From Phaeodactylum tricornutum CCAP 1055/1 (Eukaryota; Bacillariophyta; Bacillariophyceae; Surirellales; Neidiaceae), in assembly GCF_000150955.2 (NCBI RefSeq), contig NC_011686.1:1-64000 (forward strand): DNA of 64,000 bases, read 5' to 3'. Below the pieces are notes generated by a model, which searched no databases, had not been told where the DNA came from, and worked only from the letters and a program-made list of their open reading frames with translations. Positions 1 to 32,184 of the stretch are shown here, piece by piece. Position numbers and translations under genes: made by a program. Every line of letters begins with the position of its first letter. The stretch's first letter is position 1.

Positions 1-276
1 TAACCCTAACCCTAACCCTAACCCTAACCCTAACCCTAACCCTAACCCTAACCCTAACCCTAACCCTAACCCTAACCCTAACCCTAACCCTAACCCTAAC
101 CCTAACCCTAACCCTAACCCTAACCCTAACCCTAACCCTAACCCTAACCCTAACCCTAACCCTAACCCTAACCCTAACCCTAACCCTAACCCTAACCCTA
201 ACCCTAACCCTAACCCTAACCCTAACCCTAACCCTAACCCTAACCCTAACCCTAACCCTAACCCTAACCCTAACCC
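1..276. repeat. Telomere repeat (CCCTAA)n
   Basis: There are 46 perfect CCCTAA units with no interruption. The C-rich strand reads inward, so this is the true left end of a chromosome with the G-rich TTAGGG strand running out to the left. The tract stops at a short CCCCTAC junction next to the first copy of the CTTAGG block-end motif. Confidence 0.99.
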
Positions 277-2120
277 CTACTTCTCTGGGATCTTCCTGCC
301 CTTAGGGTCTTCCTATGAGTAAAGTAGGTACTGGCATGAGTAGAAGGAGCATGATGACTCTGCATGGCAACCATGTCAGAAGTGATGGCTTTCCCATCAT
401 CTTGCACAGGGAACAGATAATTGGTCAGACTTGCAAAGAAATGCCTGACTTGAAGATCATGAGGTGCTCTGGGAAGACAAAATTGAGACTGCACAAAGTC
501 TTTCATGCAGTACTTTCTGTCATTTCTTACTGGTACAAAGCTTGACAAATCCCCTCCTTGCAATGAAATGACAAGTCTGAAAAGCAGCACAATCCTTGAA
601 ATTGACTTTGGAAGCTTGTGCTGAGTAAGTTCAGTACTGAGTTTTGACTGGGCCTTCCACTTCTTTGAAGATTTGGCATAGAAATACAAAGCACCATTCC
701 CCCAGAGAACTTGAAAGTCTTGTAGGCCTAAAGTTTCTGAATACCTCATACTGCCAAGACCCAGACCATGCAAACAGAACTCCACAATGGATGACAGATG
801 GTCTTGATCCATTTCATTGAGCTGAGGAGACAGCTTCAAAGAATCACTAGAAATATCTCCACTAGCTTGTTGAACTTGAAAGTGCACATCATCATCAGTT
901 CCACCTGATATTCTGACATTGAGCAAAGGCAGAGTTGTGGTCAAAAAGACTTCCCATTCCTTTCCATCAAAGATCTGACTGAGAACAAGTCTGGCAGCAC
1001 TAACAACCCTTGGAATGAGAGTCTTCCAAATTTCTGGCTTGAAGACAAGCCCTTGTACCACAATCTCTCCATTTCTGGAGAAATGCCTGTCAACAACCTT
1101 GGGTTTCTGCATCTGAATTTCTCTGAGGTGCCTGATCATAGGTCCAAGGGTGTTCATCATGGGCCTCTCCATGACAGTTTTCACCAGGACCTTAGCTCCC
1201 TCTATGTAACCAAGAGGATGGCTCATAGGCCTCACAACAGAACAATAGGCCAGTCTGAACAAGTGCATTATTGTGGCAACCTGGGAAGCAGATGCATCAG
1301 CTGATCTCAACACAAGCTGGTCCTTGGAAATGAAGAAGCATCTAGCTGCAGCATAGACACAGCCAAAGGGATACTGACTTGTGCTGGCTGGATTCTCTAA
1401 CATAACATCAACCAAAAGCTTGCCAATAAGAGCACATTGAATGATTTGAGGTGAAGAATCATGGAGTTCCCAAAGGTCAGAGATATCTTTTCTTGTTTTG
1501 GCAATAATATTAGTCCCATGACCATCATGTCTCCATAGGAAGCACAACATTTTCTTCAGTTCCTGGCTCAAAACATTAATATTATCTCTCATGGAAAATG
1601 TAGTGTTCTGGGCAACTTGATTTACCTCCACTCCCTCATAAAGCATTAAGCTAGCTCTGAGGTTGGCAGGTACTTCAGCAACTTCAAGCCTGGCATATTG
1701 AGTCAACCGAACATCTGCAATCTGAACCAACTTGGTCAACTGAAGTTCAGTAGCTTCCAGCTCACCGTATTGAACAATATTTTGTCTGAGTTTGCTTGCA
1801 AATTGGTTTCCAGTGCTTCTGATGATTTGTGAGAAAATGTTAACATACTTCTCAGCATTCTCATCATGTCTGACAAATGGCTTGATGATCAAGGTCATAT
1901 CACTGTAGGAAAGGAGTACAGATGCCTGTATGACTACCTTTTCTTGAGGCAAATATTCAACCACCCTGTTGCATATTATCTTGACACATAGCTTTTTGAC
2001 CACTTTCGCCTGAGCACAAGACCCACCTTTTTGGATTGCATTGCTAATGTGTCTCTTGATACTACCAGGTTGGGAAAAGATTTCACAGCAGATTCCACAT
2101 GTATTCATTTCCTTAGGCAC
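270..2120 (-). CDS. Subtelomeric zinc-finger protein, main part, cut off at the telomere
   Basis: This is a long open frame running toward the telomere. It opens with a C2H2-like finger (CGIC...H...H) and continues as a mostly helical protein of about 600 residues. Near its end is a stretch reading SHHAPSTHASTYFTH, which resembles the HxxH/GHS...T...Y box II of tyrosine recombinases and the comparable segment in the N-terminal half of fungal telomere-linked RecQ helicases. The frame runs straight through the block-end motif and stops in the telomere tract, so any C-terminal domain is missing. It lies in the same frame as the shorter ORF just upstream (2136-2615), separated by one TAA, so the two are probably one gene with a nonsense codon, or two parts read together. 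The family is a guess from motif shape; the ORF itself is plain to see. Confidence 0.6.
   Translation of the reverse strand: MPKEMNTCGICCEIFSQPGSIKRHISNAIQKGGSCAQAKVVKKLCVKIICNRVVEYLPQEKVVIQASVLLSYSDMTLIIKPFVRHDENAEKYVNIFSQIIRSTGNQFASKLRQNIVQYGELEATELQLTKLVQIADVRLTQYARLEVAEVPANLRASLMLYEGVEVNQVAQNTTFSMRDNINVLSQELKKMLCFLWRHDGHGTNIIAKTRKDISDLWELHDSSPQIIQCALIGKLLVDVMLENPASTSQYPFGCVYAAARCFFISKDQLVLRSADASASQVATIMHLFRLAYCSVVRPMSHPLGYIEGAKVLVKTVMERPMMNTLGPMIRHLREIQMQKPKVVDRHFSRNGEIVVQGLVFKPEIWKTLIPRVVSAARLVLSQIFDGKEWEVFLTTTLPLLNVRISGGTDDDVHFQVQQASGDISSDSLKLSPQLNEMDQDHLSSIVEFCLHGLGLGSMRYSETLGLQDFQVLWGNGALYFYAKSSKKWKAQSKLSTELTQHKLPKSISRIVLLFRLVISLQGGDLSSFVPVRNDRKYCMKDFVQSQFCLPRAPHDLQVRHFFASLTNYLFPVQDDGKAITSDMVAMQSHHAPSTHASTYFTHRKTLRAGRSQRSRG
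283..306 (+). repeat. Block-end motif, copy 1 (telomere-proximal)
   Basis: This is the first of five copies of a motif with core CTGGGATCT, a C/T-rich stretch, then CCTTAGG. It sits only six bases from the last telomere unit, as though the telomere had been added within or just beyond it. The other copies are at 4860, 6535, 7246 and 32161, all in this orientation. Confidence 0.75.
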
Positions 2121-2135
2121 ATCTGAGCAATAAAA

Positions 2136-2615
2136 TTAATTTGGAGGTAATGTCTTCATCCTCTCTACTCTCAGCTTGAGTTCCTTGAAAGTTAGACCAT
2201 TATAGCCAGCATGGTATTTTCCTATGTGCCTGAAAAAGTTGCCCCTGTGTTCTACTGCAATTTTTGTCTTACATTTGAGGCAGTATAAACCAAAAGGTGT
2301 AGATTGGAATAACTGATCATCTATTCCTTCATTTACTGTAACTTCATCAGATGGAGATTCTGTTAATGTTTCTTTGGGAGAACTTGGGGGGCTCAAGAAG
2401 GGTGGTTGTATATCTGCTGTTGGTGTGGTTGTTTGGGCCTTACCCCTACCAAAAATAATACTGCTTGCTGCATCAACAGTGTTGGGTACTGAAAGTGAGA
2501 GGGGTAGTGATTGTGTCAACTTTTCCCTTTCCTTTCTCTTTTTTCCTGTGGCTGCATAGGGATTATTAACAAGGAAGGGCACATTTGGTGGTTTGTTTGA
2601 TTGTTCATCACTCAT
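2136..2615 (-). CDS. N-terminal zinc-finger ORF of the subtelomeric gene
   Basis: This 159-residue ORF starts at a good ATG. Its first 100 residues are Ser/Thr/Pro-rich and look disordered, with a basic KKRKEREK patch that could be a nuclear signal. The last 50 residues hold a CLKC...HIGKYH finger, a C2H2-like pair with a 13-residue spacer. A single in-frame TAA separates it from the 616-codon frame downstream, which begins with a second finger. Paired fingers ahead of a large helical domain fit a DNA-binding mobile-element or telomere-linked protein. A short intron over the stop is possible but I see no convincing splice sites. Confidence 0.5.
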   Translation of the reverse strand: MSDEQSNKPPNVPFLVNNPYAATGKKRKEREKLTQSLPLSLSVPNTVDAASSIIFGRGKAQTTTPTADIQPPFLSPPSSPKETLTESPSDEVTVNEGIDDQLFQSTPFGLYCLKCKTKIAVEHRGNFFRHIGKYHAGYNGLTFKELKLRVERMKTLPPN

Positions 2616-3189
2616 TGTGTAGATTGTGCTGTTCTCTGGGAAAAATTGCCTGTGGGAGTTTTTTGGAAATTGTTAGTGAGGAATTGCAAAATCATCTGTT
2701 GCTGTATGTTGAAGGTGACTTGAATCTAACAGTAGGAGAAAAAAGGACCTGCCAGAAGTACTGTCAAAATCTATTCTTCTGTGTCCAGGCTTTTTTGCAT
2801 GGATAAATCCCCAACTGGGTCACCAAAATGAATCCACTTATATTGCATTACTTATATGCTTCAGAAAAATGATTTGGAATCCAAGTTGATGCATATGGTC
2901 CAGACAGTTTCTTCCTACCAGTGTACATTCATCTTGACTAAGTGTAAATAGATCATATTGCAATGCTTATATGCCCCATAAAAAAACAAATTAGAGCCAA
3001 AGTTATGCACTATTATAAATGTTCATAAATCACAATCCCAATCAATCGTACATAGATCTTTTTGCTGTACTTTATTATTAAATGTAAATTTGAACCCCAT
3101 TGGACGTGAATAAGCCAGAAAATTTCAACAGAAACCGAAAATACACACATGCTGTGTAAAATGGATGGGAAATTGGAGTTGACACCTTA
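2616..3189. other. AT-rich stretch without a gene
   Basis: This is upstream of the minus-strand zinc-finger gene and presumably contains its promoter. There is a near-repeat of the phrase 'atattgcattacttatatgc' (about 2839 and again about 2957 as 'atattgcaatgcttatatgc') but no reading frame of note. Confidence 0.5.
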
Positions 3190-3418
3190 AGAAAAATTCA
3201 CGACGCAAACAAGCCTTTTTTGCCCGCAAGCTTTTTTTCATGGAATGCAGTCGTGGTGGTCAGAACAGAAGATCATGGTATGACCAAACCCACGTCCTAA
3301 AAATATTAACTGCGGGAATCGTGATCAAAGTTGTCCGGCTGGGAAGCAATTGGCTGTGTTTGTTTTGACATTGGTTGGGATTGGTTGAGTTGGTGCTGTC
3401 TGTGGTGACAACAAGAAC

Positions 3419-3481
3419 AGCAGCGATGACGACGAGAAAAGCAGCGACGACGACGAGAAAAGCAGCGACGACGACGAGAAC
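3419..3481 (+). repeat. 21-bp minisatellite coding Ser-Ser-Asp-Asp-Asp-Glu-Lys
   Basis: Three tandem copies of a 21-bp unit (AGCAGCGAYGACGACGAGAAM) stay in one reading frame. The second subtelomeric unit carries only a short, unexpanded version near 5155-5200. In the plus frame the repeat follows a hydrophobic stretch, so it looks like the remnant of a secreted or membrane protein with an acidic repeat. The frame has stops around it in this unit. Confidence 0.8.
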
Positions 3482-4084
3482 AGCAGCGACGGCAACAGCG
3501 CCAACGACGACAACTTTGACAACAACAATGGTGAAACTAGATTTGTTGACCTGGGACAAAGTTAACCCTTTGTTGGCTGCAACTTCCCACATGTGCTGTT
3601 AAAAGGCACAATGTAAGCGTGCCGTTTGGAGCAAACAAAGGGATTTTTGACGATGGAAAAAGCCGTGCTGCAATCGCAACGTAGGAAACGGAAGGTAATG
3701 ATACCAAAGCTGTATCCTACAAATCAAGAATACGGACACTATTAATAGATATTCTTCCAATTGCGAAGGGTTGACCAAAGTTGGTGTCGGCAAAGTAGCA
3801 GTTGTATCGGATCACTCTGTGACAGCAGGAAACCTTGCTTGGCTGCAGTAGCCCGTGAGTTCTACTATCCGTCGCAAACAACACTTTCCCTCTCTCTACC
3901 CATGATGGGAGTGACCAAGAAAGTTGCAGATGCAGGTAGTGTGGGGGGTTGACCAAGTAATGCCAAATAGAATCCACAATAGAACTTGAAGATAAAATAG
4001 ACATCAAACAAAATGCAACCAACATGTGTTTAGAACATCTACAGATAGTACAAGCAAATTGAGAAAGTGTACCAAAGTCTAATT

Positions 4085-4324
4085 TTAAAGAAGACTACTT
4101 GATGTTATTCCTGTAGAGCCCAGGCTGTCAATAGGGCCAGCGCAACTGTTTCGTATCGCTCGATTTTGGACGTTGTTTGCATCTTGCTCGACCGTCGCTC
4201 CTTTCGTTTGTTCTCCTTCCTGATTGTCCGACAAGGCCGCTAATCCCTGCTTTAGCGCTTCTTCGAAATTCTGCCGCTCCTGGTGCGCTGCTTGCATCTG
4301 CTCCTGGAGTTTCTTGTAGAACAA
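4085..4324 (-). CDS. Conserved small ORF, copy 1 (coiled-coil-like)
   Basis: This ORF of about 79 codons has a helical, Gln/Glu-rich front (KKLQEQMQAAHQERQNFEEAL) likely to form a coiled coil. The frame stays open upstream for roughly 35 more codons (FYEIWCFIR...), so this is more likely a last exon than a whole gene. The copy at 5774-6013 differs at only four of 79 residues although the flanking DNA of the two units has drifted much further. No family is recognised. Confidence 0.4.
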   Translation of the reverse strand: MFYKKLQEQMQAAHQERQNFEEALKQGLAALSDNQEGEQTKGATVEQDANNVQNRAIRNSCAGPIDSLGSTGITSSSLL

Positions 4325-4859
4325 TTTGACATTGTCTTCCCCATTCCGGGGAGCAACACAAGAGCGGGCGGGTATGTCGCGAATGAAGCACCAGATTTCG
4401 TAAAACGCTCCGTTTCCAAATCACCACACTGCATGATCACCAGTCTTCTCTGGTGTTAGCCTACCCTATCCGCAAAAAAACATCCGCGGTTGATGCTGTT
4501 TGCGGGCTGCATTGTAGATGCACACATGGTGCCGTGAGTGTTTCTGTTGTAAAAATTGACGAAGTTTGACGAAAATTTCATCTGCTCGTAGCTTTAGCGA
4601 CGGCAAGTCCAATTCGGCTGACGATGAGTGTCAGAATACGGTTGTACGTAAGCAACACAGAACACAAACGCAATTTGCGGAAGAAGAACTGACTGTGAAA
4701 GCTGTTTGCCAGACGTCAGCAAGTTAGGTATCCCTGTGCAGTAACTATAACCCTATTTGATATCTCAGTGCAATTTGTTGATATCCCAGTGCAATTACTT
4801 ATATAAAATGTGATATCCCAGTGTAAAGATAAAATATTCATTCATGTATATTTTTACAA

Positions 4860-4883
4860 CACCCGGATATCATTTTCCTTAGG
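4860..4883 (+). repeat. Block-end motif, copy 2 (most degenerate)
   Basis: It reads CCGGATATCATTTTCCTTAGG and closes unit 1. Three iteron-like GATATCYCAGTG units lie upstream (about 4728-4830), with an inverted arm directly in front of the motif. Confidence 0.6.
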
Positions 4884-5098
4884 TGACGTGCCAAAGTGTC
4901 TCGTGTGCTACACACACAATTCTAACAAAATCACGAACAAGCCGTTTTGCCCGCAAGCTTTTTCATGGAAACTGCTGGAGAGGCTAGGCTGTGCCGCAGT
5001 GGCAATGGTCAGAACAGAAGATGATGGTATAACGGAAACCGCGTCCTAAAGATACCAAGTACGGGAACCGTAGTCAACTTGCTCCGGCTGCGAAGCCA

Positions 5099-5326
5099 TT
5101 GCCTGCGTCTGTTTTGGCATTGATTGGTATTGGTTGTGTTGGTGCTGTCTGCAGTGACGACGAGAACAGCAACGACGACTTCGACGACAACAACGACAAC
5201 GGTCAAACAGCATCCGTCGACCTGGGTGAAATAAAACCTTTTGTTGGCCGCAGCTACCCACTATGCTGTCACAAGGCACAACAAATGCATGTCATTTGGG
5301 GCCGACAAATGCCGCAATATTTTTGA
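5099..5326 (+). CDS. Small ORF with hydrophobic start and acidic tract
   Basis: This 75-codon frame reads a hydrophobic stretch (ASVLALIGIGCVGAVC), then an Asp/Asn-rich acidic segment, then VDLGEIKPFVGRSYPLC. Unit 1 holds the same order of features with stops, which supports a once-coding plus-strand gene with a signal or anchor segment. The frame is open upstream of the stated start, so the true start may lie in an earlier exon. Function unknown. Confidence 0.3.
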   Translation: MPASVLALIGIGCVGAVCSDDENSNDDFDDNNDNGQTASVDLGEIKPFVGRSYPLCCHKAQQMHVIWGRQMPQYF

Positions 5327-5773
5327 CCATGGAAAATGCCTTGCTGCGATTGTGACGGAGGGAACCGAAGTTGGAATTGAAGCTGAAGCCGCATTGGATA
5401 AATGAAAATCGCGGGAACTGTTGGCAGACATCTTTCCGGTTGCAAGGGGCTTGCCTGTGTTTGATTTGACCCATGCTGGTGTTGGCGAAAAATCAGTCAA
5501 ATTGGGTCACTCTATCTGCGACAAAAGGAAACCTTGCTTGGCTATTGTAGCCTGTGAGTGCTGTTGTCCGTCGCTCATGACCCTTTCCTTACCCATGATG
5601 CAAGTGATGAAGAAAGATGCGGATGCAGTCAGTATATGGGGCTGAACAAGTATCACCAAATAGAAACCACAATAGAAATAGAAGATAAAATAATCATCAA
5701 ACAGAATGCAACCAACATGTGTAGCAGCTATAGATACTACAAGCAAACTGAGAAAGCGTAACAAAGTCTAATT

Positions 5774-6013
5774 TTAAAAAAGACTACTTGATGTTATTCC
5801 TGTAGAGCCCAGGCTGTCAATAGGGCCAGCGCAACTGTTTCGTATCGCTCGATTTGGGACGTTGTGTGCATCTTGCTCGACCGTCACTCCTTTCGTTTGT
5901 TCTCCTTCCTGATTGTCCGACAAGGCCGCTAGTCCCTGCTTTAGCGCTTCTTCGAAATTCTGCCGCTCCTGGTGCGCTGCTTGCATCTGCTCCTGCAGTT
6001 TCTTGTAGAACAC
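5774..6013 (-). CDS. Conserved small ORF, copy 2 (coiled-coil-like)
   Basis: This is the counterpart of 4085-4324, with 75 of 79 residues identical, the same stop position and the same open extension upstream. Two copies with such a conserved frame in otherwise drifting repeats suggest selection on the protein or recent gene conversion limited to this segment. No known domain is visible. Confidence 0.4.
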   Translation of the reverse strand: MFYKKLQEQMQAAHQERQNFEEALKQGLAALSDNQEGEQTKGVTVEQDAHNVPNRAIRNSCAGPIDSLGSTGITSSSLF

Positions 6014-6534
6014 TTTGACATTGTCTTTCCATTTCCGGGGAGCAACACAAGAGCGGGCGGGTCTGTTGCGAATGAAGCACCAGATTTCGTGAAACGCTCC
6101 GAATTACACTCCAAATCACCACACTGCATGATCACCAGTCTTCTCTGGTGTTAGCCTACCCTATCTGCAAAAAAACATCCGCGGTCAATGCTGTTTGCTT
6201 GCTGTATTGTAGCTGCCATGAGTGTTTCTATTGTAAAATTTGACGAAAGAAAAATTCTCTACTAGCTAGAAGCTGTATCAACGGCGAGTCCATTTTGGCC
6301 GCCACTGACTGTTTACAGTTGTATGTAAGCAACACAAAACGCAGACGCAATTTACGGAAGAACGACCGACTGTGAAAGCTGTTCGCCAGACGTCAGCAAG
6401 TCAGGTATCCCTGTGGAGTAACTTTCACCGTTTTTGAATCTCAGTGGGAGTTTTTTGGATCCCAGTGGCATGCGTTAAGTAAAAAATGAATCCCTGTGTA
6501 AAGATAAAATAAACATTCATGTATAAGTTTACTA

Positions 6535-6558
6535 CACAGGGATCTCCTTTTCCTTAGG
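6535..6558 (+). repeat. Block-end motif, copy 3
   Basis: It reads CACAGGGATCTCCTTTTCCTTAGG. It is preceded by iteron-like units (ATCCCTGTG, ATCTCAGTG, ATCCCAGTG, ATCCCTGTG) and an inverted TACACAGGGAT arm. It closes unit 2 and lies 42 bp before the interstitial telomere tract. Confidence 0.75.
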
Positions 6559-6599
6559 GAATAGTGCATTAGCTCCTTTTTACGTCCTGTACGTACCTG

Positions 6600-6618
6600 A
6601 CCCTAACCCTAACCCTAG
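6600..6618. repeat. Interstitial telomere tract
   Basis: Three CCCTAA-type units in the same orientation as the terminal array sit just inside block-end motif copy 3. This looks like a former chromosome end or a telomere-derived insertion junction. Confidence 0.85.
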
Positions 6619-6775
6619 GTATCGGCAACTTAACAACGACATGAAAAGCCAGGTATTTTGCCCCACCTCCCCAGGCACAATCGGAATCAGCGGTCACTTC
6701 AAACACTCGAAAACACAACGAAAACACTACCTTTGATCCTGCTACCTCAGCATAGAACTACTGGGTCTGATAAAC

Positions 6776-6936
6776 TAGAAAACTGCAACAATAACGGGCT
6801 AGAATCGTCTAAGGAACCGAAAGGATCCCGCATACTTTCGTAGACAATCAAAGGCGTAAAAACATAAGATCATAGACTTGTCAGATAGACTTAGGGATCT
6901 GAACCCTCATGTACCGCTTGACGTAGGGGTTTTCTA
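6776..6936 (-). repeat. Solo LTR of the 10.6 kb copia family
   Basis: This 161-bp LTR begins TAGAAAAC and ends GTTTTCTA. It matches the LTR at 10605-10766 at about 94-95% by eye. No internal element sequence adjoins it, so it is a solo LTR left by recombination. No clear target-site duplication is seen. Confidence 0.8.
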
Positions 6937-6961
6937 CTAATTCACCGCAAAGAAGCTCTTT

Positions 6962-6999
6962 CCGGTTGCTTGCGGGAAAACCGAATTAAAGGCAGCCTG
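6962..6999 (-). mobile_element. Orphan DNA-transposon end
   Basis: On the minus strand this 38-bp piece begins CAGGCTGCCTTTAATTCGG and continues TTTTCCCGCAA. It matches the left end of the hAT-like transposon at 18017 almost base for base, including the CAGG terminus. Only this end is recognisable here. Confidence 0.65.
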
Positions 7000-7113
7000 A
7001 ATATTGCTGAAGCGGGGAGACAGAAACGGGAGGCTCAGACAAACTGATAAGAGTTCATCGGGTACCGAGTTCTATTGGAACATACAATCGAATAAGGTTG
7101 CGAAGCGAAGACA

Positions 7114-7255
7114 GATCCCAGAGTAATTACTATGAGGTCCGGAACTGATCCCTGAGTAATTACTTAGAAGCAAGGACAGATCCCAGAGTAATTACTTATG
7201 GGTAGTTTTTGGATAAATTATAAACAGCATTGAAGGTTTATACTACTCTGGGATC
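7114..7255 (+). repeat. GATCCCAGAGTAATTACTT iteron array with inverted arm
   Basis: Three direct copies (7114, 7147, 7179; spacing 33 and 32 bp) of GATCCCWGAGTAATTACT are followed at 7241-7255 by an inverted copy, TACTACTCTGGGATC, that merges into block-end motif copy 4. Regular spacing close to three helical turns suggests protein-binding sites. Related, weaker arrays precede copies 2 and 3. Confidence 0.75.
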
Positions 7256-7269
7256 TCCCTCCCCTTAGG
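7246..7269 (+). repeat. Block-end motif, copy 4
   Basis: CTCTGGGATCTCCCTCCCCTTAGG, nearly identical to copy 5 at 32161. It marks the left edge of the block that holds the 896-codon orphan ORF. Confidence 0.8.
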
Positions 7270-7429
7270 TGTACATTGGTGTATATCATAACACACCTAT
7301 CACTATCTTATCTACCATTCTAATTCTAGGCTCAATCAATACACCTTGTTCCATCATGTATGACCTATTTACCAGTATGGGATGGGGTTTCTCTCTCACC
7401 CACTTGATTGCTATCCACTCCATCTCTTC

Positions 7430-10120
7430 TTACATTATTGTTATGATAGTATCATTATTGGGATCAGTGGTCTTCTTTGCTCCTACAACTGTTGGGTCAG
7501 TTACTATTCCATACTGCATCCCTCGCGTGTATGACAAGGTGACCCCGTCAATTGATACCTGTTCTACGGTCTTTTTTTCAGCAACCGCAACCGGACTGAG
7601 GTTTGGGTTACTACCATCGGCACACCTCACTCCAGGTACTGGCACACCAGACAGTAACATGTTGAACTGGAGATTTGTCAACGGCCCGGCTGATCTCCCG
7701 TGGTAGCTCTGTACCGCCCGGTTCCGTTCCCTAACCATGACCATAGCCACAGCTATCTGAAAAGTGCCCACAAAGAGCACAATCACGAGTGCCATGGCCA
7801 CCGCATACCTAACAGGAGGCGTGCTCCCTTTCAATACTGACAATACGGTTGTCGTTAGTACTACCGTCAAGCCGTTCATCTTTCCTGACATTTTTGTCCT
7901 GCCAACATCATGGCAACAAGCCATCCTTACAATGTCTCGCAGCGGGACAAACTCGCCTGACCCTCCGACAGCAACTGCAAGTGCTATTAGGGATAAAAGA
8001 GACCTTTCATTGCTTGTTGACCACCCGATAACTCCTACTAATGCAGACGCCGCTATTAGTAGTACATCCTCTTTCCTAAACTCGGTCAGCGCCACCAACG
8101 CTTCGTAGGGATGGGGCGGTGCGGTGGCTATGTTGACGAGGCCCCCGTCACGCAAGATCACCGCGGGGCCTGGGAGCATATTCAAGTCCAGTGATGCTTC
8201 ACGCCACATCTTAACAATGTTGCCAGCCTTCCCCTCTCTCCACTCTTCGACTATCAGTGGTAGGTGGGCACACGCATCGTTATGCCCTGCTAAAGATCTG
8301 ACAACTTCCTTGAACAGTGACATTTCAGCTGAAGAATCGGGAACATACACATTTCCTTCTGCCAATCCCCCTCCCACCACTGATGCAAGCCAATCTTTCG
8401 TTCCGTAGACGACCGCACGTTTCGCATTCAGTATGGCGACTGCATGCAGCACTGAATTTTTCCAGTCCAAATTCGACAAGACGGCGGGCATTTTTGCCCT
8501 TCCTCCGTAGAATCTCACTGTTATAGAGTGCAGTAGGGAGTTAACCCCCGACACCGTGGGTCTGCAGAGAGGCGTAGCGAAGCCGTAATTTACGCATTCC
8601 TCCAACTCCGCATACCTCAATTCGGCTCTGTGACTGGTGTCAGAAGACCTTCCCAACGAGGATGTCAGCAAGTCGGCAATAGATGTCCTTACCGAGGGAT
8701 GGAATCCTGGTGCTATTGCCAAGGAAGGGGTGTGTGCACCGTACAATTTGTACCACCGCAATTTCTCTGGTATCTTAGCCACACGTTCTGAGAATAATGG
8801 GACGAGCCACGACGTTTCTTCTGTGATTACTAATGTGAATGGCGCTTGTGTTATGTCCGCCACCCACACGTTGCGTGCCGTGAGCAGCGAGGCTCCTTCC
8901 GCATAATTTGCTTTCAGCACCCTACGACAAGCCCTCTGGGCGTTCCTAGGTTTCGTCGTATCGCCCACTCTGACATATTCGTCAAAAAACCTCGTCTGCT
9001 GCAAGTCGGCAGCCAGCCAGTGGTTCCACTTGTAAAAACATTGTTCCGGAAGCTTCATTTCGGCAATTTCTATTGCCCTCGTAACTATCGCGTATTTCAC
9101 TAAGGTCCTTTCCCCAACGTTCCCGGCTAGCACTTCCAACATTGCGATTTCGACTGTCGCAATCAATATATTACCGACCCTTCCCACCGTAAGCCATCCC
9201 CGTTCTATGGCCGGCAAAAACCACTCTGAATGGGTTGACCCGTCCTCTTCTGCTATCATTCCTGGGATACGTGCCGCCCTCATGACGACCATCAGGACTG
9301 CGGCTCTGCGGATGAAGTTTGCCGTTGCGCACAGTTGCCCGTTGGTGTTGGTACTCTCCCATGCGGTTTTCAGTGGCTGGAATGTCGAAAGGCATGAGCC
9401 AGGAGGACACCCTAACGCGTGCATCCACTCCACCTCCGAAACCAAATCTGCGACTGCTAACGAGTCCCCCTCTGAAAGATATATGTTTACCATTACCAGA
9501 GGGCCCACGATTTCACGGAATGTTGACACCTCCACTGCTCGAACAATGCCGTAAAAATCCCTCGCGGTAACACCCTCGGAAGGGTCTTCCGCGAGTGTTG
9601 ATGCTGCTGAGTGTCCCAGTTCACGCTGGATTCTTAGCATCTCATTCATGACTCTCAATGCCACTCCGACCGGATGCCATCCCGTATGGAACGTATTTTC
9701 CATCAATTTAAGGGATATGAATTCTGACAACGAAAGCTCGCGGACTCTCTGGTGTTCTATTTCAACTGTTATCTCCATCGGTAGGGTACGTAGTAACTTT
9801 GGAAATGCACTCTCCAACAGCCACGGTATTACGGCCTTTATTTCTGGGAAGCCTATTATGTCACTTTTCTCCATATTGAACCTCGTTATAACCGGGGGGA
9901 AAGCCTCCCAGTTTGACACCTCCACTGCCCCTTTCCCCGTAAAAGTCGCTACTCTGGTTCGACTTCCCCTCCCTTGTTTCTTTCCAGTCTCGGCTAAAAA
10001 TAGTCCTATAGCTGTTATCACGCACGGATCATGTTTGCGCGGACGGGCCCCTATCTCGGTTTGCGTCGTTTTTGTGGGTACGACGCGGCCCCTTTCGATA
10101 TCGGGTGACTTCATCTTCAT
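7430..10120 (-). CDS. Intact orphan ORF, 896 codons, C-terminal membrane segments
   Basis: This single uninterrupted frame starts at ATG (MKMKS) and ends 160 bp from block-end motif copy 4. Roughly the first 680 residues look like a soluble, mixed alpha/beta globular protein with no motif I recognise. Residues of about 690-830 hold four hydrophobic stretches likely to cross membranes (including VLLIAASALVGVIGW and AMALVIVLFVGTF), and the last 70 residues are polar. The leader upstream (10121-10413) is GC-rich with hairpins, and iteron-like repeats flank the block. It is intact amid decayed repeats and its base composition differs from the AT-rich surroundings, so it is either recent or maintained. 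Possibilities are an endogenised virus-like gene (a structured leader plus one giant ORF is suggestive) or a gene of the subtelomeric element itself. I cannot assign a family. It looks whole. Confidence 0.75.
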   Translation of the reverse strand: MKMKSPDIERGRVVPTKTTQTEIGARPRKHDPCVITAIGLFLAETGKKQGRGSRTRVATFTGKGAVEVSNWEAFPPVITRFNMEKSDIIGFPEIKAVIPWLLESAFPKLLRTLPMEITVEIEHQRVRELSLSEFISLKLMENTFHTGWHPVGVALRVMNEMLRIQRELGHSAASTLAEDPSEGVTARDFYGIVRAVEVSTFREIVGPLVMVNIYLSEGDSLAVADLVSEVEWMHALGCPPGSCLSTFQPLKTAWESTNTNGQLCATANFIRRAAVLMVVMRAARIPGMIAEEDGSTHSEWFLPAIERGWLTVGRVGNILIATVEIAMLEVLAGNVGERTLVKYAIVTRAIEIAEMKLPEQCFYKWNHWLAADLQQTRFFDEYVRVGDTTKPRNAQRACRRVLKANYAEGASLLTARNVWVADITQAPFTLVITEETSWLVPLFSERVAKIPEKLRWYKLYGAHTPSLAIAPGFHPSVRTSIADLLTSSLGRSSDTSHRAELRYAELEECVNYGFATPLCRPTVSGVNSLLHSITVRFYGGRAKMPAVLSNLDWKNSVLHAVAILNAKRAVVYGTKDWLASVVGGGLAEGNVYVPDSSAEMSLFKEVVRSLAGHNDACAHLPLIVEEWREGKAGNIVKMWREASLDLNMLPGPAVILRDGGLVNIATAPPHPYEALVALTEFRKEDVLLIAASALVGVIGWSTSNERSLLSLIALAVAVGGSGEFVPLRDIVRMACCHDVGRTKMSGKMNGLTVVLTTTVLSVLKGSTPPVRYAVAMALVIVLFVGTFQIAVAMVMVRERNRAVQSYHGRSAGPLTNLQFNMLLSGVPVPGVRCADGSNPNLSPVAVAEKKTVEQVSIDGVTLSYTRGMQYGIVTDPTVVGAKKTTDPNNDTIITIM

Positions 10121-10413
10121 ATTTTATGTGTTTTGCTTCTCGGTTGAACCCTCGGCCTAGCGATGCCGGCCCGCAGTGACTGCGGGGTATTGTGACACGG
10201 GATGTTGCGGCGTCGAATTTTACTCCCGGCCGTGCCGAAACTTCGGTGCGCCACCCAGCTAAGTAACTTGGATTCGTAGTCTAATGTAGACCGTATCGAA
10301 CCTTTTCTGAAGAACCGGGGGGTGCAACAAAAAGTGAATTGTGTTTGCGTCCTGTAGTCTTTACAAAGCGATTGAAGGAATACTTCCAAAGACGAGATCG
10401 GAGAAAAATTGTT
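10121..10413 (-). promoter_or_regulatory. GC-rich structured leader of the orphan ORF
   Basis: This segment upstream of the 896-codon ORF contains a perfect 7-bp stem with a 3-base loop (10170-10186, CCCGCAG/CTGCGGG), a GGCC...GGCC pair beside it and a CCGAA/TTCGG stem at 10235-10246. Such density of strong stems is unlike the rest of the subtelomere and would suit a structured 5' untranslated region. Transcription is not shown by sequence alone. Confidence 0.45.
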
Positions 10414-10519
10414 CTGTGCAAAGTGACGCACTCACTATCGCATAAGTAGTCTTGGAGATCCAGGTGCTCTGCAAAGTGATGATCTCACTATTGCATAAGT
10501 AATCTTGGAGATCCAGGTC
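10414..10519. repeat. 53-bp tandem repeat, two copies
   Basis: Units start at 10414 and 10467 and share 'gcaaagtgaygmwctcactat' and 'gcataagtartcttggagatccagg'. Read on the minus strand the second half gives GATCTCCAAGAYTACTTATGC, close to the GATCCCAGAGTAATTACTTATG iterons at 7114-7199, so the orphan-ORF block has related repeats on both sides in opposite orientation. Confidence 0.8.
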
Positions 10520-10524
10520 CCAGT

Positions 10525-10594
10525 GAGCAATCCCGCATCATCAAATCATATGTAGCATTGAGCGATCCCGCATCATCAAATATGCTTTCCAATG
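10525..10594. repeat. 35-bp tandem repeat, two copies
   Basis: Units start at 10525 and 10560 and share GAGCRATCCCGCATCATCAAAT. They lie directly between the 53-bp repeats and the LTR at 10605. Confidence 0.8.
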
Positions 10595-10604
10595 AGCATA
10601 AATG

Positions 10605-10766
10605 TAGAAAACTGCAACGATAACGGGCTAGAATCGTCTAAGGAACCGAAAGGATCCCGCATACTTTCGTAGACGACCAAAGGCGTAAAAACACAAGATT
10701 ATAGACTTATCTGATAGACTTAGGGATATGAACCCCTCATGTACCGCTTGACGTAGGGGTTTTCTA
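10605..10766 (-). repeat. 3' LTR of element A
   Basis: 162 bp, TAGAAAAC...GTTTTCTA, with inverted termini TAGAAAA/TTTTCTA instead of the usual TG...CA. Matches the solo LTR at 6776 and is a relative of the LTR at 30368. Confidence 0.85.
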
Positions 10767-13700
10767 GTCCCCACACATCGAAACCATAAACATTGACATG
10801 CACATGGAGAGATGTGTCCCCTCAAAACCACTATGGGAAAAAATAGGGATCCACAACTTGTAAAATAAAACTTCGACACTGCATGCAATGACATGTAGTA
10901 CTGCAAATGCAATTTGTTCCGATACTGGCTTCATCGAAACGGGAAAGTTGGCAAACCCTTCTTCACTTGAGTTAATATAAAATTTGACGCATAAGATTCT
11001 GTCGTACTGGGGCTGACTGAACCTTTGTTAGCGCATCGGCTAAGTTTGTCTCCGATGGCTCATAAGCAATCTTGATACCTCCCATTGCGACATTCTCTTG
11101 TACAAAGTGATATGCAATAGCATTACTCTTCTTCTTCAACATTGATTCCGGCGCTGTAGTATTGTGTACCACCGACATATTGTCGCACAAAACTCTAGCC
11201 GGACCATCAATCGGAATTCCCATCATCCGTAATTTATACCTTAAACCCTGAATCATCTCCGTAGCAATCTTTAATGCAACAAACTCACTTCCAAACGAAG
11301 ACGTTTCGACTGAATTCTGACGCTTCGAAAACCACATACTCGGAGCACAATTAAGATAGATCAAAACACCTGTTCGTGAACGACGAGTGACTTTGTCTCC
11401 AGCATGGTCAGCGTCAACAAAAGCAGTAATCTCCACAGCCCTACCACGTGGCTTCGGAGCATTCGACGGAATAGGTTCCTTCACATTACCATAAAAATCC
11501 GTCCAATCTGCACCATCTATAAAATGGTTCTCAATATCAGCATACAAATCATCAAACACGAGTCGAGACCTGTTGTGAGATTTCAAATAAGCAAAAATAT
11601 GAAGAACAGCACTCAAGTGTCCTTCTCGTGGCATCGCGAGAAATGATGAAAGCATAGATACTTCACACATAATATTGATACGACCAATTTCAACTGCCCA
11701 TCTCAAAACACCAATCTGAGAATGAAAATAGTTAGCACACTCTGCATTCAACACAGGAGAAACATCAAGTTCTGGTCGATATTTTGTTGACATTGGCAAT
11801 GACACTTTGTTAGGCAAATCTCTTTTGATTTCGCTCAAATCCTTCTCAACATTCGCGACAGCTTGTTTCACGTAATTTGTCGAACTCATAGACCATCGCG
11901 GTTTGTCTGGCTTATCAGGAAGTGAAAAGTGTCCAAGATTCGCTCCCAAATATGTCTCCGGTGTCTTAATCAATTCCGGTTTAAGCTTGAAATGTTTTCC
12001 GATAGTATCCAAGATACTCTTCAGATCATGACTGATACATAGGAAATCATCCGTGTAAATAAGCACATACTCATAAAATTTGAGACCACCTTCATTCTGA
12101 AATGGTCTTAACCAAACATCTGGATCTACAAAACAAGAGGTAAACATTAATTCTTCCATTGTTGCAGCTAAGTGAGCACGCCATGCAGCTCCACTTGACT
12201 TCAAACCATACAACGCTCAAACAATAATTGCATAACGATCTTCCGTCGAATTCCCAAATTCTGGACCACATGTTGTATATACCTTTTCTCGAACTGGGGC
12301 ATTCAAATATGCATTTTGTGCATCAGCACCAAGTATTTGCATCAAATTCAACTCTGCAATAAGTAATGCAATTCGAACACTGTCCCTGGAAACAACACTA
12401 GCATAAGTAATCGAACTCGGCAGATCTGTAATGTTTCCCCCGGCGACGAATCTGGCTTTGCAAGTGAAGTCCATTTTGATATCAAAAATCATGTGACAAG
12501 GTATCCAAGTGTAACCAACTGGTTTCGACGCATTGGGTTCAAGAACTTTGAATGCTGGCATAACATTTTTCATCTCTTTTCTGATTGCATCCAACCATGT
12601 AGAAGTGTTAGTATAACAATCAATCTCTAGAGCTTCCTTTACTGATTTCGGCATACAAATACCGAATTTGTGAGTCCGTTTCAGGTATCTGGCCTTTACC
12701 GCTGAAATAATTCTCTCTCATTTCCGTAATACGTCTGGTACCCACCAGGCAAAAGCTGGTTCATGGACTAACTTGTTCGCAACAACATATTCGGCGACGT
12801 CAACAGGATTCGATTCTTTCAGGTCTTTCAAGGGAATCCATGTATTTGATCCGTCTTTCCATTGAAGTAAAAGTTGCCAACCTTTCGTTGTTTGACGCAT
12901 TTGTTTTACACCACGTTTGTCTGTATAATACAGATTGTCAGCAGCAACCGCCAATCCGTCCTTTTGGTGATCAACAATTTCCTCCATTAAAAGATAACAA
13001 CAACCCTTGTCATTAACCTTTGAATAAAGATGCTCAGCAATAACATTAGCTCCGTATTCCTGTACATTACCGTCTGGAAACTGAACTTCTAAGATACAAG
13101 TGTCCAAAACTGGATCAGGATTCAACCTCCCAATTGGATTACTATCTCAATCTTTCTTTTGTCCAATTATTCAACCAGCACCAACATGATCATGTTTTGG
13201 TATTACAACTTCCGCATTGATATACTTGTCAAATGCTTTGTGATCATACTTGTCTGCTTGTGGCATCGTTTCCTGGTCCCCTGTAAAATGGTCCGAATAC
13301 ATCTCAAACTCACTGGGTTCCACCTCGAAAACATAAGTATTCTAAAACACAATCATCTTTGTTCATAACAAAACAAATGTTCTTCTCAAAACTCTCTTGA
13401 AGTAACTTCACCTGTTGAGAATTAAGATCACTTGTAGAAAGTGGGGAGTAAGTAGTTCGCGAAATAATTTGCGAATTTCTGCCAAGTATACAAGCACACA
13501 AGGCATCACCTATATCGTGAGCAGGTCCGAGCCAGTGACCAAGTTTCCGCTTATCCTCCGGAAAGTCAACTGGATCCAAATACCATACCCAATCATACCA
13601 TGCAAACTCGCATAAGTGACTAATAGCCGTGGTATCTCCCGATACTGCCGTATTTGGGACATCATTGTTCAACGCGGAAATATTATGCGCAATTGACAAT

Positions 13701-32160: not shown

Positions 32161-32184
32161 CCCTGGGATCTCCCTCCCCTTAGG
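32161..32184 (+). repeat. Block-end motif, copy 5 (subtelomere/core boundary)
   Basis: CCCTGGGATCTCCCTCCCCTTAGG, nearly identical to copy 4 but 25 kb away. It is the last subtelomeric feature; the first core gene begins 193 bp later. Confidence 0.8.

Follow-up and report, generated by a model that had tools for sequence, protein, structure and literature searches.

We found that an intact 896-codon open reading frame (ORF) close to a contig end of Phaeodactylum tricornutum lies behind a leader sequence that recurs elsewhere in the genome, where it begins at a sharp 5′ start and precedes ORFs unrelated to one another. We tentatively favor a mechanism whereby one-ORF units were captured from a virus-like source and the unit on contig C18 was stitched into the subtelomere. 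This reading rests on the diverged, intact second copy of the gene, on the sharp-start 5′ module in front of unrelated ORFs, and on the absence of a host codon preference. An endogenised virus-like gene that looks whole had been proposed from the sequence alone (the sequence-only reading); the proposal is possible and now leads, but not for the reasons first given.

An intact ORF with one diverged relative

The window is the 64-kb stretch of DNA that we analyzed, which is the start of contig C18 (702,471 bp) in a genome of 27.45 Mb and 88 contigs. It opens with ~275 bp of CCCTAA telomere repeat; AACCCT is reported as the telomere repeat of P. tricornutum (PMC9266582). The features of the block and its surroundings are collected in Table 1.

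Table 1. Positions of the ORF, its leader and neighboring repeats (window coordinates unless a locus is named)
Feature	Position	Strand	Remarks
Subtelomeric unit	6617..7269	+	copies 96-97% at C23:505112, C17:502, C60:171700
Copia 5′-end remnant with LTR	6776-6936		inside subtelomeric unit
Three 30-nt iterons	7102-7131, 7135-7164, 7167-7196	+	part of subtelomeric unit
Junction motif CCTAAGGGGAGGGAGATCCC	7250..7269	-	telomere-side end of block; points to telomere
Intact ORF, 896 aa, orphan	7430..10120	-	one relative in own genome
Leader upstream of ORF	10121..10471	-	10257-10471 common to other loci, 90% to C14 copy
Two 53-nt tandem units, 87% alike	10411-10463, 10464-10516	-	one unit in other loci's leaders
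Two 26-nt direct repeats, 92%	10521..10581	+	between leader and copia LTR
Copia-type LTR	10605..10766	-	element's 3′ part and coding region to right; cuts block's upstream side
Low-copy RT-like element	excerpts 1-3018 and 3081-5463 (C2, C79 loci)		directly behind leader-linked ORFs

The uninterrupted 896-codon frame was confirmed, its one stop codon being terminal. By our own arithmetic, the chance of so long an open run is ~2e-19 when equal codons are assumed. The gene had also been called an orphan, and it does match no known family, but it is not single: the genome search returned one relative, an intact ORF of 899 codons on the reverse strand at C2:4921-7620, 4.9 kb from the end of contig C2 (the C2-end relative). 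The two proteins are 24% identical over their whole length and 28% identical over residues 400-884. By alignment, their C-terminal halves are clearly homologous (local score 358; shuffle maximum 56), and between their N-terminal halves homology was not detectable (score 40; shuffle maximum 58). For the 160 nt that follow the stop codon (7270..7429, reverse strand), the genome search gave no DNA match besides the window itself; matches at other places end at 7269-7271.

Nothing above chance level was found for the window ORF in Pfam, PHROGs, NCBIfam or the PDB, and no relative was found among the viral contigs of a collection that is not an RNA virome, using scans that catch close relatives only. 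Searches with back-translated patterns of the proteins gave no confirmed viral, bacterial or archaeal relative. Neither a known-family match nor stops in the frame, the two findings named by the sequence-only reading as telling against it, were seen. Four C-terminal membrane segments had been described, but a Kyte-Doolittle scan (19 residues, cut 1.6) placed only two in the C-terminal third, a weak one at residues 707-725 and a strong one at 778-796, with a further weak hydrophobic segment at 315-333.

A leader with a sharp start precedes unrelated ORFs

With the C14 copy of the leader as query, we obtained 8 matches at 7 loci, C14 itself included. The longer copies are at C2:180000 (97%; contig of 1,497,954 bp), C79:6365 (96%), the window (90%, query 76-289) and C22:465743 (79%; contig of 591,336 bp), while only the first part of the leader is present at C8:824097 (84%; contig of 1,007,773 bp) and C47:21326 (81%). 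The C2:180000, C22 and C8 copies occupy interior positions. In the window the first 75 nt are missing; because the copy is incomplete, the membership of C18 in the leader family rests on 215 nt at 90%. The second C18 match is the doubled 53-nt unit. Both of the 53-bp repeats that had been noted on the right flank exist, but they belong to the leader.

The 5′ start of the leader, read in six loci with the window excluded, is sharp. Column agreement is at least 4 of 6 back to position -11, the A of ACGTTTGCCTG, and at most 3 of 6 for the next eleven columns outside it, until -22; agreement of 4 of 6, which can arise by chance, returns at columns -23 and -24. Of the outermost seven bases of the C14 copy, six differ.

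Four other leader loci (C14, C2, C79 and C22) run into ORFs, and C47 and C8 carry only leader fragments between host genes. The ORFs comprise 1,141 codons at the interior C2 locus, 977 at C79, 308 at C22 and, at C14, 452 from the ATG that we used (459 are listed from a TTG). BLAST detected no similarity among the ORFs that follow the leader at C18, C14, C2, C79 and C22, and a profile comparison of the C18/C2-end pair with the C14, C2-interior and C79 proteins found nothing. A common motif of C18 and C79 that had been seen by eye was rejected (hhalign probability 0.1%). The C14, C2-interior, C79 and C22 proteins gave no convincing family match, the C14 matches resting on an SGE repeat, and the C79, C2-interior and C14 proteins have no paralogues in their own genome besides themselves. 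Several hydrophobic segments occur in the C14 and C2 ORFs, and none over the cut in those of C79 and C22. The last part of the C14, C2 and C79 ORFs loses coding-like base composition and may not be coding. A conserved terminus before different ORFs was found at the 5′ end only.

The leader had been described as rich in strong hairpins, and this did not hold. Its predicted folding energy is -84.3 kcal/mol, compared to a shuffle mean of -79.3 (z -0.95), and 22 of 100 shuffles fold at least as well; a longer leader gave a mean z of -0.71 over both windows scored. A structured leader was rejected, since it folds no better than shuffled sequence. Inside the ORF, z fell to -2.8 and -3.2 in two of 13 windows, and the mean was -0.76 (host XDH, -0.37). 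Rfam found nothing at 6000-11000 of the window and three matches at the other leader loci, all below the gathering score. At C14, excerpt positions 1729-1828 form a long imperfect hairpin of GAGTCGGATTT-like units, whose microRNA-family matches fall far below the gathering score.

Leader-bearing units elsewhere in the genome

At C22, a unit of ~1.46 kb, consisting of the leader and one ORF, lies between direct copies of host DNA that align over 473 columns at 84% identity. The unit extends from about ten bases before the leader start to 136 nt after the ORF. The host duplication takes in the end of the upstream ORF, and its copies occupy positions 1017-1481 and 2945-3400 of the excerpt. The arrangement resembles either the uptake of a linear, gene-sized piece that left a long target duplication or a tandem duplication containing filler. 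By eye, the gene downstream of the unit resembles xanthine dehydrogenase.

The C2 and C79 leaders are 99.3% identical over 271 nt, and the ORFs behind them are unrelated. The same RT-like element follows both ORFs (2,099 nt, 99.8%); its C2 copy starts at an internal point of the C79 version. When 1.7 kb spanning the start of the element was used as query, only C79 itself and C2 matched, and on C79 part of the 3′ end of the element is also present upstream of the leader. By eye, the element is of the type that combines a reverse transcriptase, RNase H and a tyrosine recombinase; in Pfam only RVT_1 was matched (E 0.1). The leader piece on C47 directly adjoins 18 nt that are found again 3′ of the RT-like element at C2; beyond this match, no common 3′ end of the units was found. 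By visual inspection alone, C2 and C47 may have 5-bp target repeats.

None of the six loci has a convincing terminal inverted repeat. The best candidate, at C2, has 2 mismatches in 14 (3-5 mismatches at the other loci); 3 of 300 shuffles of a 1,500-nt control also came down to 2 mismatches, and the search at C2 covered a stretch more than four times longer.

These junctions bear on an alternative mechanism, in which a DNA-based mobile element or mobile promoter carries swappable cargo and the leader serves as both 5′ end and promoter of the element. It would explain the sharp start, the unrelated ORFs and the gene-sized insertion. The ORF-less fragments at C8 and C47 point the same way, as do the C47 joint, which resembles an internally deleted copy whose two parts lie far apart at C2, and a CCAAT-like box noted by eye in the leader. 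Against it stand the lack of a convincing terminal inverted repeat, the 473-nt duplication at C22 and the absence of a transposase among the unit ORFs scanned with Pfam. We consider this mechanism a serious contender that is nevertheless unlikely.

Intact open reading frames whose codon use is not adapted to the host

We compared third codon positions between the C18 and C2-end ORFs and found them at the same level as in codon-shuffled controls. Because the proteins are still alike while their silent sites are saturated, the comparison requires selection on the protein for most of the divergence, whether inside the genome or outside it. Conservation by codon position was dropped as proof of selection, since codon-shuffled controls gave the same pattern. 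In a simulation of substitutions only, a frame released from selection stayed open in 11% of 400 copies at 0.02 substitutions per site and in 1.5% at 0.05. The C22 ORF is intact despite the 16% difference between its flanking duplications; ~10% of neutral copies would be open at 0.075 per site.

Codon use was scored against 36 host ORFs of at least 200 codons, a small reference set that may include ORFs spanning introns; only the first 330 (C14), 600 (C79) and 700 (C2-interior) codons were scored for three of the ORFs. The C18, C14 and C22 ORFs score below all 36 host ORFs, and the C2-end, C79 and C2-interior ORFs below 35 of 36. The copia and RT-like elements fall inside the host range, with 12 and 14 of the 36 host ORFs, respectively, at or below them. 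The subtelomeric cassette at 273-2120 is equally low (1 of 36 at or below), so poor codon adaptation is not special to the leader-bearing units.

In a leave-one-out comparison, all six ORFs fit the codon table of the others better than that of the host, as do 2 of the 36 host ORFs. Their own base composition explains five of the six as well or better, and third-position composition all six. A foreign codon dialect common to the six ORFs was consequently weakened to a lack of host adaptation: codon use in the six ORFs shows no adaptation to the host, whereas that of the resident retroelements is host-like.

Rather than arriving from outside, the two subtelomeric homologues could belong to a host orphan family kept by selection, with the leader as a promoter copied before several young genes. 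Such a family explains the open frames, as both homologues are intact and near contig ends and the C22 ORF has stayed open between diverged duplications, but it does not explain unrelated ORFs behind one leader, and codon use falls at the bottom of the host range or under it, with no host ORF scoring at or below C18. We regard this explanation as unlikely.

The flanks belong to separate repeat families

The block had been described as framed by inverted related repeats. The best local alignment between the left flank and the reverse complement of the right flank was matched or bettered in 12 of 500 shuffles (8 of 500 under lenient scoring), so the resemblance of the flanks is weak, and the inverted bracket was rejected: the left flank is part of the subtelomeric unit and the right flank part of the leader, two separate repeat families. 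A search with the left flank reported at least 53 matches, with 40 of 227 candidates scored; besides the near-full copies of 6617-7269 on C23, C17 and C60, the matches cover parts of 6559-7269. A larger flanking pair, which the sequence-only reading had not named, consists of copia LTR sequence (6776-6906 and 10605-10735, 94%). The right-hand LTR occurs together with its adjoining 3′ part at 22 places besides the window, and RVT_2 matches two coding pieces of this copia element, one at 31.8 bits (cut-off 31.6) and one below the cut-off at 19.5 bits. The window ORF is not part of a copia element, as each of the two LTRs terminates a different element and no reverse transcriptase was found in the ORF.

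The junction motif follows the pattern CCTAAGG(G/A)NAGGNAGA(T/A)CCC, found in the window at 287-306, 6539-6558, 7250-7269 and 32165-32184. With at most one mismatch it occurs at 116 places in the genome, and a reversed control pattern at 0. Among the 57 listed places on contigs of known size, 56 face the nearer contig end and all 57 lie within 50 kb of it; an interior motif at C12:422893 is outside the 57. The orientation and location of the motif indicate that it is mainly a subtelomeric junction, where cassettes end on their telomere side. The C18 block, the C2-end relative (a one-mismatch motif at 4885-4904, 16 nt beyond the stop), the C14 unit, where the reading frame continues into the motif, and a multi-copy cassette at 306-2660 all end in this way, and the motif may mark how subtelomeric cassettes are joined.

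Other parts of the window are also built of such pieces. The telomere-adjacent cassette at 270-2660 has two coding frames (616 and 159 aa), a zinc-finger match below the cut-off and 15 genome matches including itself (71-99%) at several chromosome ends; several of the matches start exactly at the CCTAAGG motif. Between 3200 and 6558, a unit of ~1.68 kb is present in two direct copies, each ending at a motif variant (4883 and 6558).

The block had further been proposed as the coding part of a subtelomeric element, but its left edge is the general subtelomeric junction, its right edge is copia sequence, and leader relatives are found in chromosome interiors as well. A single element bounded by inverted repeats of its own is a highly improbable account of the block: the weak likeness of the flanks and the copia LTR sequence on both sides favor it, against flanks that belong to separately repeated sequences, an LTR found with its 3′ part at many other places, and other flanks around the C2-end relative.

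A possible virus-like origin of the units

Capture from a virus-like source jointly explains the sharp start, the unrelated ORFs, the gene-sized insertion, the lack of codon adaptation and the saturated silent sites with open frames. The leader would then be the 5′ terminal module of linear one-ORF units that replicated outside the chromosomes. Most likely, these units would be the segments of a so far undescribed, virus-like replicon whose 5′ end is long and conserved; copies of the units would have entered the diatom genome at breaks, perhaps aided by resident reverse transcriptases. The 5′ ends of their RNAs would be expected at ACGTTTGCC, and not further inside the leader. The window unit would have lost its outermost 5′ end and been built into a chromosome end, joined on its telomere side at the CCTAAGG junction and cut on its upstream side by the copia element. 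Its protein might serve the replicon in an accessory or structural role at membranes.

Several observations count against this virus-like origin. No viral relative of any of these proteins was found, and neither was a polymerase; PF02123, the sole family searched, was silent in the diatom's own genome and in all 14 controls. No 3′ end common to the units was found beyond the 18-nt match between C47 and C2, and the leader is not structured. At two loci, host genes flank only a fragment of the leader, as would be expected of a dispersed repeat or promoter. Base composition accounts for codon use in five of the six ORFs, and a subtelomeric cassette scores as low. In addition, several hydrophobic segments are unusual for segments of dsRNA viruses.

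Comparison with known systems

In the botybirnavirus SsBRV2, the 5′ terminal regions of two segments with different ORFs are reported to be 82.3% identical, and the non-polymerase proteins of related viruses share ~25-27% identity (PMC4895950). The units described here are similar in that a leader of 79-97% identity precedes different ORFs and the C18 and C2-end homologues are 24-28% identical. Unlike the reported botybirnaviruses, they yielded no polymerase, common 3′ terminus or viral-family relatives, and they lie in chromosomes. In an FLDS study of diatom-associated dsRNA, orphan segments were assigned to one genome by their common 5′ ends, and the reported common ends are as short as nine nucleotides, compared to up to 284 nt for the leader (PMC4791113). 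A ghabri-like virus has been reported in one P. tricornutum transcriptome (PMC9599419).

The LTRs of diatom copia (CoDi) elements are reported to be 153-844 bp long (PMC2806351). LTR sequence of that type lies on both sides of the block, but it comes from the ends of different elements, and the ORF is part of neither. Subtelomeric gene cassettes, by comparison, include Y′-like and TLO-like families. The C18, C2-end and C14 copies are like such cassettes in ending at the junction motif, and unlike them in that other leader-bearing units lie in chromosome interiors. Among the titles and abstract openings listed in literature searches, none describes this gene or leader, which is no proof of its being unpublished.

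It is possible, though doubtful, that the genome records an undescribed multi-segment RNA replicon of diatoms, with a common 5′ end and differing orphan, often membrane-bound, proteins, where the C18 ORF and its C2 relative are the same protein of two related replicons. Many diatom proteins have no known relatives, and where they come from is often unclear. One sharp leader that joins unrelated orphan ORFs offers a handle on the origin of orphan genes. The leader can be traced in RNA viromes, strain genomes and transcript starts, which would distinguish whether such orphans come from unseen segmented viruses or from a gene-moving element.
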